Origin: Phycisphaeraceae bacterium D3-23
GTDB lineage: Bacteria > Planctomycetota > Phycisphaerae > Phycisphaerales > Phycisphaeraceae
Assembly (NCBI GenBank): GCA_039555135.1
Contig: CP114179.1
Location: forward strand, 1,550,001 to 1,614,000
Reading direction: 5' to 3'
Length of the DNA: 64,000 nt
Position 1 is the stretch's first letter, and the number at the start of each line of letters is the position of its first letter. Shown here piece after piece: positions 47,783 to 51,718 of this stretch. The position numbers and the translations under genes are program-made. The notes under the pieces were generated by a model. It saw nothing but the letters and a program-made list of their open reading frames with translations, was not told the origin of the DNA and did not search any database.

Positions 47783-50700
47783 CTAACCCAACTCATCGAG
47801 CTGCTGCTTCACCACGTCCCGCTCCTTCACCGCGGCGGCGTGCTGGTCGCGCGTCTCCTGCACGAGGTGGGCCGGGGCATTGTCAACGTACTTCTTGTTG
47901 CTCAGCCGGCCCTCCAGCATCTTCACCGCCTTCTCCTTCTCGGCCAGCGCCTTGTCGAGCCGTTCCTTCTCGACCTCGGTATCCACCACGTCGTGCAGGT
48001 ACACCGTGACATCGCCGACGATCACCGCCGCCGCGCCCTGGGGCTTGTCGATCTGCGGCCCGACGCCGCGCCCGACGCAGCGCGTCAGGGGCTGGGTGAT
48101 CGCGCGGTTGTCCAGGATAAGCTGCGCGATGTGGGCCGGGGCCTTGGTCGTCGCCTCCACATCCTGGCGCGGCGGGATCTTGTAGGCGTTGCGCGCATTG
48201 CGGATCGCTTCGACGATCGAACGCAGCAGCTCGAAGTCGCGTCCGGCGTCTTCATCACGCAGCGACGGCTCGGCCGTCGGCCACGCCGCGCGGATCAGCG
48301 TCTCGCTGTCGGGCAGCGCGACGCCTTCGGCACGCTCGATGTCTGCGGCCGTGCCACGCAGCGCCTCCCACAGCCGCTCGGTGATGAACGGCATGGCCGG
48401 GTGCAGCAGCCGCAGCGCCGCGTCCAGGCACGTCGCCAGCACCCGCTGCTGGGCCGGGTCTTCCTTCACCGTCGGCTTGACGATCTCCACATACCAGTCG
48501 CACAGGTCGCGCCAGAAGAAGTCGTACAGCGCCGTCGCGTAGTCGCTGAACCGGTACTCCGCCAGCGCCTTGTCCACCGTCTCGATCGTCTTGCCGAGCT
48601 GATTGAGGATCCACTTGTCCGCCAACCCGAAGCCCACGCCCCCGGAAGTTGAGTCCGCCGAGCGTGGGCTTCCCCCGTCGCTTTGCAACAACGGCAGCGC
48701 AAACCGAAACGCGTTCCACAGCTTGTTCGCAAACCGCTGCCCCTCGTCAAACTTCTCGCTGCTGTTGCGCGCCAGCGGCAGGTCGTCACTCGCCACCGCC
48801 TCGCCCGTCGCGACGCCGTAGGACGAGACCATCTTGCTGCCGTTGTGCTCCTGCAAAGGTGCCGCCACCTTGTAGCCGTTCTTCGCGGTGATGTAGGTGG
48901 GCGTAAACGTCTCGCCGGTCCTGGGGTCGACCATGTCCACGGGCAGGCGGACGTCCTGGGTCTGCGTGGTCATCTTGGTGAGCGTGAAGCGCATGGCGTC
49001 GCTGCCGTGGCTGTGGATGATGTCCATCGGGTCCACGCCGTTGCCCAGGGACTTGGACATCTTCTGCCCGTGCCCATCCTGGATCATCGCGTGGATGAAG
49101 ACGTGCTTGAAGGGGAGGTGCCCCTCCGACGCGTCTTTTTCTGACGAGACACCATCTGACGAGCCGCGACCGTCAGGGAGCGGACCAGCCAACTTGTTTT
49201 CTTCACCCCCAGGGTCCGCTCCCTCACGGTCGCGGCTCGTGGTTGGGTTGCTCGTGAAGTACTTGTTAAACATCACCATGCGCGAGACCCATAGCGTGAT
49301 GATCTCGCGAGCCGTGCATAAAACAGACGTCGGGTTCCACGTCGCCAACTCCGGCGTCTGCTCCGGCCAACCCAGTGTCGACAACGGCCAAAGTGCCGAG
49401 GAAAACCATGTGTCGAGGACGTCGGGGTCGCGTTCAAATCCCGCGGCTTCAAGCTGTTTCATTTCCTCATCGGATAGCGCACAGATGAAGATGTCATATG
49501 CCCCTTCTGTCTGAGCAACCACAGGATTCAAGTCGTGCTTGGGATCAACAACGATGCCATCTCGAACTCTTTGAAAAACTACATGCGCAGTTTTCCACTG
49601 CCCTGAAATGATGTCATCCAGACCAGACTTACCTGCAAGCTCATCTACCCAGTTTATTTCGGTGAGTTCAACGCGCTTACGCCACACCGGGATCCGGTGC
49701 CCCCACCAGAGTTGTCGGCTGATGCACCAGTCGCGGATGTTCTCGTGCCAGGCCTGGAACGTCTTGGCGTAGCGCTCGGGGTAGAACTTGAGGCCGCCCT
49801 CCCCGGTGGCACAGGCATCCTGCCTGTGTTCCCCCTCAAGCTCCCAAAGCCATTCATACTGGCCCTGTTCATCAGACAAGCCAGACTTGACCGGGTTGTT
49901 ACGGATGTAGTTCCACTTCTCATAGAACTCATCCTCATCCCGGACGATCCGATCAAAGGATTCGTCAAGCCAAAGCGATCCGGTCGCGCCACGTACCCTG
50001 TTGATCTGGTTCGCCGAAAAACTCTTGATGCTGTGGAGCAGTGCCGACAAGCTGTGCCAGTTTCCCTCATCCGCCATGTATGGTGTCAGCAGGAGGTGGA
50101 CGTGGTCGGGCATGACTACCGCGGCGTGTAAATCCATCCGTTCGCCGTGCCAGTGCATGGCCGCATCTAAAGCAATCTTGCGCTCGGCTTCACTGAGTTC
50201 GCCGCTTCGAACTCGGTAGGTCACAAAGTAGGTGCTGCCGCCCTGCTCCCAGTGGGGGAGGTTGCGGCGGCTGCGGTCCAGGGATTGATCAACTGTCTTG
50301 GGGGGGACCACAGGCAGGATGCCTGTGCCACCATCCCCCTCAAACTGCGACGCATCCATCGCGCGGAGCGCGGCGCCGGCCAGCCGGTCGTCCGTCACCT
50401 TCACGTACCACTGGTCGGTGTAGTAGGGCTCGACCGGCACGTGGCTGCGATAGCTATGCCCCACCGCGTGGCGGTACGGCTTCACTTCCTGCATCAGGTC
50501 GTTCTGCTTGAACCAGATGACGATCTGCTTGCGGGCTTCTTCGCGCGCTAAGCCGACAAGCGGCTTGAGTTCCTCGTTCTCGCCGGGGTTTTCTTCCGCG
50601 GGCCAGCCGTGGTCGATGGAGATGCTGGCATCCGGTGCCATAACGTTGATGATCGGCAGGTCGTGGCGCTGGCCGATCTCGTAGTCGTTGGGGTCGTGGG

Positions 50701-51718
50701 CGGGGGTGACCTTGAGGAATCCCGAGGCCATCTTGGCCTTGGCGTCTTCGCTGTCGGCGTCCGGGATCACGACGTAGTCGTCGCCGACGATGGGGATGAT
50801 GCGGTTGACGATGGGGAGCTTGACGAACCGGCCGATGTACTTGGCGCGCGGCGCATCCTTGGGGTTCACCGCCACGGCCGTATCGCCCAGCATCGTCTCG
50901 GGGCGCGTCGTCGCGACGGTCGCGAACTCGCCGGTAGTGTTGCCGTCCGCATCGCATACGGGGTACCTCATGTAGTAGAAGTTCCCATCAATGGTCTCCA
51001 TCTCGACCTCGTCGTCGGACAGCGCGGTCTGCGTCGCGGGGTCCCAGTTCACCAGCCGTTTGCCGCGGTAGATGAGGCCGTCCTTGAAGAGCTGGAAGAA
51101 CGCCTCGCGCACGGCCTTCGCGCACTGGTCGTCCATCGTGAACCGCTGGCGGTCCCAGTCGCACGAGCAGCCCATCTGCTTGAGCTGGTTCGTGATGACG
51201 GCCTCGTACTCGTCCTTCCACGCGGTCACCTGGGCGATGAATTGACCTCGGCCGTCCTTGCCTGCGAGCTCGTCCTGCTTGTAGTCCTTGAGCGCCTTCT
51301 TGCCCTCTTGCTGGAGGCGTTTATCGACGACGGTCTGGGTGGCGATGCCGGCGTGGTCGGTGCCGGGCATCCAGAGCGTGTTGAACCCGCGCATGCGGTG
51401 GACGCGGGTGAGGATGTCCTGCAGCGTGTTGTTGAGCGCATGGCCCAGGTGCAGCGCCGCGGTGACGTTGGGCGGCGGGATGACGATGCTGTAAGGAGGG
51501 GCCGAGGGGTCGAGGGGCGCAGGGGCCGAGTGTTGCGCCCCTTCTGTCCCCCCCCCCACTTGGCCCCCTGGCCCCTTGGCCCCTTGGCCCCTGTTCGGGA
51601 AGGCCGCGTAGGCCTTGGACGCGAGGTAGCGTTCGAGGACGTGCGGCTCGACCTGGGTCGGGTCGTACAGCGGGGGGAGGTCCGTGGCGTGGGGGGCGTT
51701 GGTCGGGGCGGTGGGCAT
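47783..51718 (-). CDS. valS: valyl-tRNA synthetase carrying three in-frame insertions, one a RAYT transposase
   Basis: ValRS attaches valine to tRNA-Val and edits mischarged threonine. Catalytic motifs are intact: HLGH at residues 90-93 and KMSKS at 886-890. The CP1 editing domain, anticodon domain (AEYRFSDYATALYDFFWRDLCDWY) and C-terminal coiled coil (EVEKERLDKALAEKEKAV) are all present. The protein is 1311 residues, far above the usual 850-1000. The extra length comes from: residues ~42-74, a Gly/Pro/Ala low-complexity stretch before the HIGH region; ~463-638, a whole RAYT domain with flanking palindromes, just before FYPERYAKTFQAWHENIRDW; and ~827-853, a GAGCCGCGACCG inverted repeat before HLPFKHVFIHAMI. 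All keep the frame and all fall at loops between conserved blocks. The synthetase is probably active with the inserts as loops, or the inserts are processed; neither is shown. Confidence 0.95.
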   Translation of the reverse strand: MPTAPTNAPHATDLPPLYDPTQVEPHVLERYLASKAYAAFPNRGQGAKGPGGQVGGGTEGAQHSAPAPLDPSAPPYSIVIPPPNVTAALHLGHALNNTLQDILTRVHRMRGFNTLWMPGTDHAGIATQTVVDKRLQQEGKKALKDYKQDELAGKDGRGQFIAQVTAWKDEYEAVITNQLKQMGCSCDWDRQRFTMDDQCAKAVREAFFQLFKDGLIYRGKRLVNWDPATQTALSDDEVEMETIDGNFYYMRYPVCDADGNTTGEFATVATTRPETMLGDTAVAVNPKDAPRAKYIGRFVKLPIVNRIIPIVGDDYVVIPDADSEDAKAKMASGFLKVTPAHDPNDYEIGQRHDLPIINVMAPDASISIDHGWPAEENPGENEELKPLVGLAREEARKQIVIWFKQNDLMQEVKPYRHAVGHSYRSHVPVEPYYTDQWYVKVTDDRLAGAALRAMDASQFEGDGGTGILPVVPPKTVDQSLDRSRRNLPHWEQGGSTYFVTYRVRSGELSEAERKIALDAAMHWHGERMDLHAAVVMPDHVHLLLTPYMADEGNWHSLSALLHSIKSFSANQINRVRGATGSLWLDESFDRIVRDEDEFYEKWNYIRNNPVKSGLSDEQGQYEWLWELEGEHRQDACATGEGGLKFYPERYAKTFQAWHENIRDWCISRQLWWGHRIPVWRKRVELTEINWVDELAGKSGLDDIISGQWKTAHVVFQRVRDGIVVDPKHDLNPVVAQTEGAYDIFICALSDEEMKQLEAAGFERDPDVLDTWFSSALWPLSTLGWPEQTPELATWNPTSVLCTAREIITLWVSRMVMFNKYFTSNPTTSRDREGADPGGEENKLAGPLPDGRGSSDGVSSEKDASEGHLPFKHVFIHAMIQDGHGQKMSKSLGNGVDPMDIIHSHGSDAMRFTLTKMTTQTQDVRLPVDMVDPRTGETFTPTYITAKNGYKVAAPLQEHNGSKMVSSYGVATGEAVASDDLPLARNSSEKFDEGQRFANKLWNAFRFALPLLQSDGGSPRSADSTSGGVGFGLADKWILNQLGKTIETVDKALAEYRFSDYATALYDFFWRDLCDWYVEIVKPTVKEDPAQQRVLATCLDAALRLLHPAMPFITERLWEALRGTAADIERAEGVALPDSETLIRAAWPTAEPSLRDEDAGRDFELLRSIVEAIRNARNAYKIPPRQDVEATTKAPAHIAQLILDNRAITQPLTRCVGRGVGPQIDKPQGAAAVIVGDVTVYLHDVVDTEVEKERLDKALAEKEKAVKMLEGRLSNKKYVDNAPAHLVQETRDQHAAAVKERDVVKQQLDELG
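49160..49240. repeat. GAGCCGCGACCGTC inverted repeat inside valS
   Basis: Arms 49160-49186 and 49213-49240 are inverted copies with one difference over 27-28 bases. The minus strand encodes SRDREGAD and PLPDGRGS within valS. The same family lies between genes at 21002-21070. Confidence 0.92.
49805..50332 (-). mobile_element. REP-associated tyrosine transposase (RAYT) unit embedded in-frame in valS
   Basis: The 528-base unit (176 codons) is bounded by inverted copies of GGTGGCACAGGCATCCTGCC, each containing a perfect 8-bp palindrome (CACAGGCA-TCC-TGCCTGTG) of REP type. The ends translate as GGTGILPV and HRQDACATG. The inside is a Y1-transposase domain: STYFVTYRVRSGEL, the metal-binding His pair in MPDHVHLLLTP, SIKSFSANQINR, GSLWLDESFDRIV and the catalytic Tyr in YIRNNPVKSGL. 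RAYTs cut and join single-stranded REP DNA. It has no start or stop codon of its own at the boundaries; an internal start could be used. Direct repeats TCCCCCTCAA lie at 49830 and 50334. Confidence 0.92.
51499..51595. repeat. low-complexity GGCCCC-type insertion in valS
   Basis: The plus strand runs through GGCCCCCTGGCCCCTTGGCC and a run of consecutive C residues; the minus strand encodes RGQGAKGPGGQVGGG and APAPLDPSAPP between the N-terminal helix and the HIGH region. A similar GGCCCC run codes the C-terminal end of the gene at 46851. Confidence 0.75.

Follow-up and report, generated by a model that had tools for sequence, protein, structure and literature searches.

A REP-associated transposase in frame inside valyl-tRNA synthetase of a planctomycete, and its recurrence in conserved genes

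The tyrosine transposases associated with repetitive extragenic palindromes (REPs), known as RAYTs or TnpA_REP, are the class 2 TnpA_Y1 enzymes, and with their REPs they form REPtrons. The Escherichia coli TnpA_REP binds and cuts single-stranded REP, with the GTAG sequence being crucial, and in a Marinomonas enzyme a change from GTAG to GTGG shifted the cut to CC (both from the available part of PMC8266576). REPs occur inside tnpA_REP genes themselves, according to the available part of a survey that also includes a WQ (or WE) motif between the HUH and Tyr motifs in its RAYT motif list, and that excluded proteins of greater than expected length, regarding them as fusions or misannotations (PMC6006769). 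PMC8049555, again in the part available, regards it as unsettled how RAYTs and their REPs have lasted for millions of years. Here, we describe a RAYT lying in frame within valS, the gene of valyl-tRNA synthetase (ValRS), of Phycisphaeraceae bacterium D3-23. The window analysed is the whole stretch of 64,000 nucleotides from position 1,550,001 to 1,614,000 of contig CP114179.1, and coordinates below are positions in it unless a contig or locus is named. The element shares with RAYTs and REPtrons the HUH and tyrosine motifs, REP hairpins with a GT[AG]G foot and the fold of the solved structure 4er8. Unlike them, the RAYT is here a domain of a host gene, without a stop of its own, often without a nearby start, and partly exchanged. 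In the open-access literature, with preprints and most subscription papers outside the scope, no account was found of a RAYT residing in frame within a housekeeping gene. A Thiomargarita paper, in its available part, covers introns and miniature inverted-repeat transposable elements in genes, not embedded RAYTs (PMC4853749).

The unit within the valS frame

The valS gene is a single open frame of 1311 codons on the minus strand (47783-51718), scoring 948 bits against an NCBIfam valS cut-off of 704. Within it, a REP-RAYT-REP unit of 528 bp, exactly 176 codons, continues the frame (49805-50332, minus strand). The original prediction of a complete RAYT unit in frame at this place proved right to the base. 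Its statement that the catalytic motifs of the host enzyme are kept also holds: the HIGH motif, spelled HLGH, is at residue 90 (51440-51451, minus strand) and KMSKS at residue 886 (49049-49063, minus strand). Inverted 36-nt arms that are 94% complementary bound the unit (49805-49840 and 50297-50332). The gene-upstream REP hairpin, at 50309-50332 on the minus strand, has a GTGG foot and is translated GGTGILPV; the gene-downstream inverted REP hairpin, at 49805-49828 on the plus strand, has a CCAC foot on the coding strand and is translated HRQDACAT. As single-stranded DNA, the two fold with 8-bp stems at -9.2 and -8.8 kcal/mol (z -3.8 and -3.7). When up to two mismatches are allowed, the 24-base REP pattern occurs 22 times in the genome, both copies in the unit counted, and the reversed control pattern not at all. 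Judged from its sequence, the insert is a complete REPtron, that is, a RAYT between two inverted REP hairpins.

The RAYT (Y1, HUH) domain was assigned by an NCBIfam profile and by predicted fold to ValRS residues 489-623 (49850-50254, minus strand). It is narrowly over the NCBIfam RAYT cut-off NF047646 (80.7 against 80 bits, with profile positions 4-145 of 146 covered), and Pfam Y1_Tnp stays below its cut-off on it (16.7 against 23). For comparison, we assembled 97 non-redundant embedded domains and 47 free RAYTs; the 97 include a few domains with only one flank or with a host named by eye (L199, L213, L226, L241 and L255) as well as the frame-broken L205. The HUH motif, H539-V-H541 (50096-50104, minus strand), has both histidines kept in 96 of the 97 embedded domains, and the putative nucleophile, Tyr604 (49907-49909, minus strand), is likewise kept in 96. 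A profile of 12 embedded RAYTs, the D3-23 copy included, matches the solved TnpA_REP 4er8 with E 9e-10. An AlphaFold model of the domain alone, with a mean predicted local distance difference test (pLDDT) score of 91, matches the same structure in Foldseek with E 2.9e-8 and a template modelling (TM) score by query length of 0.72. When a 968-residue ValRS fragment is modelled (mean pLDDT 76.7, predicted TM score 0.58), ten-residue pLDDT means are 83-98 over most of the RAYT and below 50 in both linkers. Among solved structures, the model of the whole fragment matches ValRS 1gax best (E 9.7e-38, TM score by query length only 0.44), and alignment to this Thermus thermophilus enzyme places the insertion between residues 363 and 376. 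As modelled, the RAYT is a discrete domain on low-confidence linkers in ValRS.

The host gene looks intact and used. The D3-23 genome (G000) is a single contig of 4.62 Mb with exactly one valS over the family cut-off; the original prediction had raised the concern of a second intact valS, and the search for one found none. The ratio of nonsynonymous to synonymous divergence (dN/dS) of the host part between the G000 and G002 valS is 0.14 for the N part and 0.29 for the C part, and an insert-free pair gives 0.13 and 0.24. Four relatives in the same genus (L042, L039, L045 and L057) have valS without the insert. Two more RAYTs over the family cut-off are present in the D3-23 genome, L001 (C1:3885352-3888789) and L002 (C1:1311456-1314845). 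They sit in short frames of 194 and 173 residues, and the RAYT of L002 shares 47% identity with the copy in valS.

Recurrence in valS and in other host genes

We searched 201 genomes of the order Phycisphaerales, 195 of which gave a valS match, and put 106 valS sequences in a tree; valS outside this tree was judged only by frame length and two transposase queries. A RAYT relative at E<=1e-10 is found in 31 of the 201 genomes, and a relative of a second, class-3-like type in 52. Among the 106 loops compared, 14 hold an in-frame RAYT, 15 a class-3-type Y1 transposase and 77 neither. The 35 non-redundant copies in valS are all found between the QWY and DWCISRQ motifs. The length of this loop also varies without a transposase, and some loops scored as neither are longer than usual, with up to 154 residues between the two motifs (L055, in genome G017). 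Neither transposase query matched the extra sequence of that longest loop.

In most copies, the second occupant has the motifs NHVH, W[TA] and YV..EQ, which it shares with class 3 TnpA_Y1, and it is flanked by a palindrome different from that of the RAYT. As described in the available part of PMC6006769, class 3 enzymes are encoded by genes of about 178 residues flanked by structures. Pfam Y1_Tnp is over its cut-off for this occupant in L051, L091 and L096. Nine matches of the class-3 search in short frames carry internal stops and none in long valS frames does, a count that is partly self-selecting because an embedded copy that acquired a stop would thereby lie in a shorter frame. On the valS tree, there are 21 changes between occupied and empty, and starred branches force 19 or more of these. 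Within a single genus, some loops are empty, others have class 3, and others have a RAYT of one of three kinds. This recurrence at the same spot suggests that a mobile element survives by residing in genes the host cannot lose. The recurrence, the gene-specific lineages described below and the presence of two distinct transposase classes in the same valS loop were all overlooked by the original prediction.

One further palindrome and one repeat-like stretch lie in the D3-23 valS. A second palindrome, at 49144-49255, is in frame before KMSKS, with 43-nt arms that are 81% complementary. It is translated SRDREGAD...GPLPDGRGS and resembles the palindromes on either side of the class-3 valS transposases of relatives, and it holds no transposase. 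A G+C-rich repeat-like stretch near the start of valS (51497-51586, translated GQGAKGPGGQVGGG...) has a weak structured-RNA match and may be a further in-frame repeat.

Embedding is not confined to valS. In family f2 (the family of G156, with 163 genomes), where RAYTs were found by profile at E<=1e-30, there are 71 matches in 60 genomes, none with an internal stop. Sixty-nine were assigned as embedded in frame, including three (L323, L325 and L326) for which the contig ends soon past the domain and only one flank was recognised. Their hosts are valS (31), rdgB (19), leuS (16), and dnaK, kbl and miaA (one each), so that 66 of the 69 are in three genes; 14 of the 16 leuS copies are at one common site. 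The remaining two matches are L330, which is free, and L348, which has masked bases and was assigned to neither class. That 69 of 71 copies are embedded in an open host frame fits the original proposal that residence in an essential gene both expresses and protects the RAYT.

A scan of named records, using a pattern that contained DHVH, was followed through the best 80 of at least 478 confirmed candidates. Forty-two of these 80 loci have at least 80 frame residues on each side or are contig-end cases that were added (L186, L189 and L199). Hosts among the best 80 include ileS (in two positions), purH, DUF1156-type methylases, Hsp70, recG and an MmeI-type methylase. One DUF1156-type gene (L181:3837-7310) also has a GIY-YIG nuclease domain, recognised by Pfam, in the same frame before the embedded RAYT. 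A wider search of the phylum gave matches at E<=1e-20 in 61 of 392 genomes, and its hosts add alaS, further DNA methylases and an oxidoreductase of the FAD/FMN (flavin adenine dinucleotide/flavin mononucleotide) type.

Conservation, lineages and competing readings

The embedded transposase is kept. Both HUH histidines and the tyrosine are present together in 95 of 97 embedded and 47 of 47 free domains, a count that is biased for the named loci by the DHVH pattern, the f2 set having been found by profile. Between close pairs of embedded RAYTs, dN/dS could be computed for 11 of 14 and ranges over 0.08-0.24, the values being rough because dS was saturated in the other 3 and above 1 in several. 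Such values show the embedded RAYTs to be under purifying selection. Free relatives have a stop within 45 residues past the domain in 46 of 47 cases. Ahead of the domain, there is no in-frame ATG, GTG or TTG within 30 codons in 37 of 97 embedded copies against 0 of 47 free ones, so those 37 are without an obvious nearby start of their own. Translation from an internal start, one of the options raised originally, may apply to the 60 of 97 embedded copies that do have such a codon; the other 37 have none. Exact inverted repeats of at least 12 nt surround the domain in 86 of the 97 embedded copies and in 30 of the 47 free ones. When unit length was measured between the ends of the longest exact inverted repeat, its remainder modulo 3 showed no preference (31, 26 and 25 among 82 embedded copies), since the unit does not end where that repeat ends.

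The embedded copies fall into lineages by host gene. On a RAYT tree of 107 domains and 142 columns, in which many forks are weak, the host label changes 21 times, against 56.1 under shuffled labels. The purH copies are one clade (7/7), and the valS, ileS and rdgB copies cluster. The class-3 valS copies behave alike, with 3 host-label changes against 10.5 when shuffled. RAYT and host part do not always diverge together: divergence between L184 and L210 is 4% for the valS N part but 48% for the RAYT, and between L062 and L184 it is 25% and 14%. We compared four-fold degenerate sites of the RAYT with those of the host flanks in 12 pairs, corrected for 12 tests. The RAYT is more alike than the flanks in L301-L073 (rdgB; 69/71 against 96/119, p 7e-4, Fisher test on coding parts), and less alike in L338-L341 (19/50 against 179/262, p 9e-5) and L179-L189 (17/37 against 86/104, p 6e-5). 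These sites show that in some pairs RAYT alleles have been exchanged at a fixed site.

We think it probable that the REPtron resides in a tolerant ValRS loop as a domain translated with the enzyme, and that it belongs to lineages of Y1/HUH transposases in Phycisphaerales that took up this life, each specific to a single host gene and, for the most part, a single loop. The element would insert into the loop in a frame that leaves REP, RAYT and REP all open. The ribosome would then read through all three, giving a ValRS with a RAYT domain on flexible tethers. Host and element would share promoter, start and stop, and a frameshift or stop in the element would also break the host gene, shielding the element from the decay that affects free copies. 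A conserved host gene, present in every relative, would be a standing target. Exchange between host alleles could occur through single-strand cut-and-paste directed by the REPs, or through recombination spanning the conserved flanks. We infer that the frame is translated as one fusion protein, that the enzyme would be catalytically active, and that homing would be its means of spread. A more far-reaching version, for which we would put the chances slightly below even, is that two Y1/HUH classes separately became unspliced intein-like homing elements. These would preserve the frame, lack a stop of their own and be catalytically active inside the host enzyme, each lineage keeping to one loop of one conserved gene (valS, leuS, ileS, rdgB or purH) and invading empty alleles in relatives.

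Several observations weigh against a REPtron leading this kind of life. In place of the WQ (or WE) motif of RAYTs, the D3-23 copy has WL. The Q is present in 78 of 97 embedded domains and the W in all 97, and the Q is absent from 10 of 47 free RAYTs too; because the W is always kept and free RAYTs also vary, WL is not taken as excluding a RAYT. Two copies embedded in valS, L304 and L307, each lost one catalytic residue while the frame is still open (the changes are second His to Leu and Tyr to Ser). On the RAYT tree, with its few columns and weak forks, starred branches alone force only one change for most host groups. The RAYT and its flanks differ in only 3 of 12 pairs after correction. A Mantel test of RAYT against valS N part distances over 22 copies gives r 0.21 (p 0.045), rising to r 0.41 (p 0.0002) without three divergent RAYTs; since the distances are partly correlated, inheritance of the RAYT is partly vertical. 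The same test with the valS C part, in a set that included the incomplete row L067, was not significant (r 0.12, p 0.21). The N-terminal flank of the L353 valS is itself mosaic, which suggests that ordinary recombination may explain some of the RAYT swaps. Copies were called embedded only where the host frame is open, and a unit that had disrupted its host gene could therefore pass as free (in f2, at most 2 of 71). Most named relatives are metagenome-assembled genomes, and in L205 the RAYT sequence is at two places in ileS with frames broken, which is either decay or assembly error.

Random transposition, with only the in-frame hits in tolerant loops of indispensable genes surviving and being carried passively, without gene-specific adaptation, seems to us unlikely. 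Host selection alone would predict in-frame survival, the valS loop is variable in length without any transposase, and RAYT-less REPs are known inside genes (available part of PMC3733652). However, passive carriage is a misfit to the low dN/dS and the retained catalytic residues, and the copies cluster by host gene far beyond shuffled labels and are concentrated in three genes in f2. We give still less credence to domestication, in which the RAYT domain would be a working part of ValRS, such as an extra tRNA-binding or regulatory domain. It would account for the purifying selection, for a predicted well-folded domain on flexible linkers and for the partial co-inheritance with valS. However, 77 of 106 valS sequences and the four same-genus relatives manage without either transposase, a distinct class-3-type Y1 enzyme occupies the same place, and the same RAYT group also lives in rdgB, purH, leuS and dnaK. 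A role of the RAYT in tRNA binding in particular was rejected because of its presence in rdgB and purH.

It is very improbable that the insert is removed at the protein or RNA level, as an intein or an IStron would be. Inteins and introns typically reside at conserved sites of essential genes. The Pfam scan, however, gave no intein-type family up to E 1, and Rfam no intron family up to E 1, although an unknown ribozyme would escape Rfam. RNA splicing also needs no open frame, yet 69 of the 71 f2 copies are in open host frames with no out-of-frame copy recognised, and the suggestion in the original prediction that the domain is spliced out is disfavoured on these grounds. Finally, an assembly or binning artefact, which the draft state of most related genomes might invite, has a negligible chance, since D3-23 is one contig and the same architecture is present in many genomes and public records; the arrangement is not the assembly chimera that had been feared.

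Comparison with inteins and other elements of conserved genes

The best reading is, in our view, an intein-like way of life without splicing, in which an HUH element persists in indispensable genes as a domain translated with them. Inteins with homing endonucleases are likewise in frame at fixed sites of conserved genes, with a patchy distribution and gene-specific lineages (the intein side being general knowledge). They differ in that a splicing domain was not found here by Pfam, and in that the enzyme here is of the Y1/HUH kind rather than a homing endonuclease.

Residence in genes that cannot be lost would be a concrete, testable answer, for this clade, to the question of how RAYTs persist. 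Nor is unusual length a reason to discard a tRNA synthetase of a planctomycete assembly as an error, and such enzymes offer natural examples of large domains tolerated in the loops of aminoacyl-tRNA synthetases.

Two other kinds of elements bear comparison, in each case with the available part of the source cited. Intragenic REPs and the Rickettsia palindromic elements are also palindromic mobile DNA in housekeeping frames, those of tRNA synthetases included, but they are short and non-autonomous, with at most 82 codons, whereas here there is a whole transposase with gene-specific lineages (PMC3733652). As is proposed here, the WHO elements of yeasts home into a single gene, in their case FBA1, and do so without splicing of the protein; they replace the 3' end of that gene, while the element here stays within the protein and belongs to another nuclease family (PMC7282813). 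If the REPtron does live as we propose, it adds to inteins and WHO elements another route for selfish DNA at essential genes, one that does not splice and remains a lasting part of the protein.
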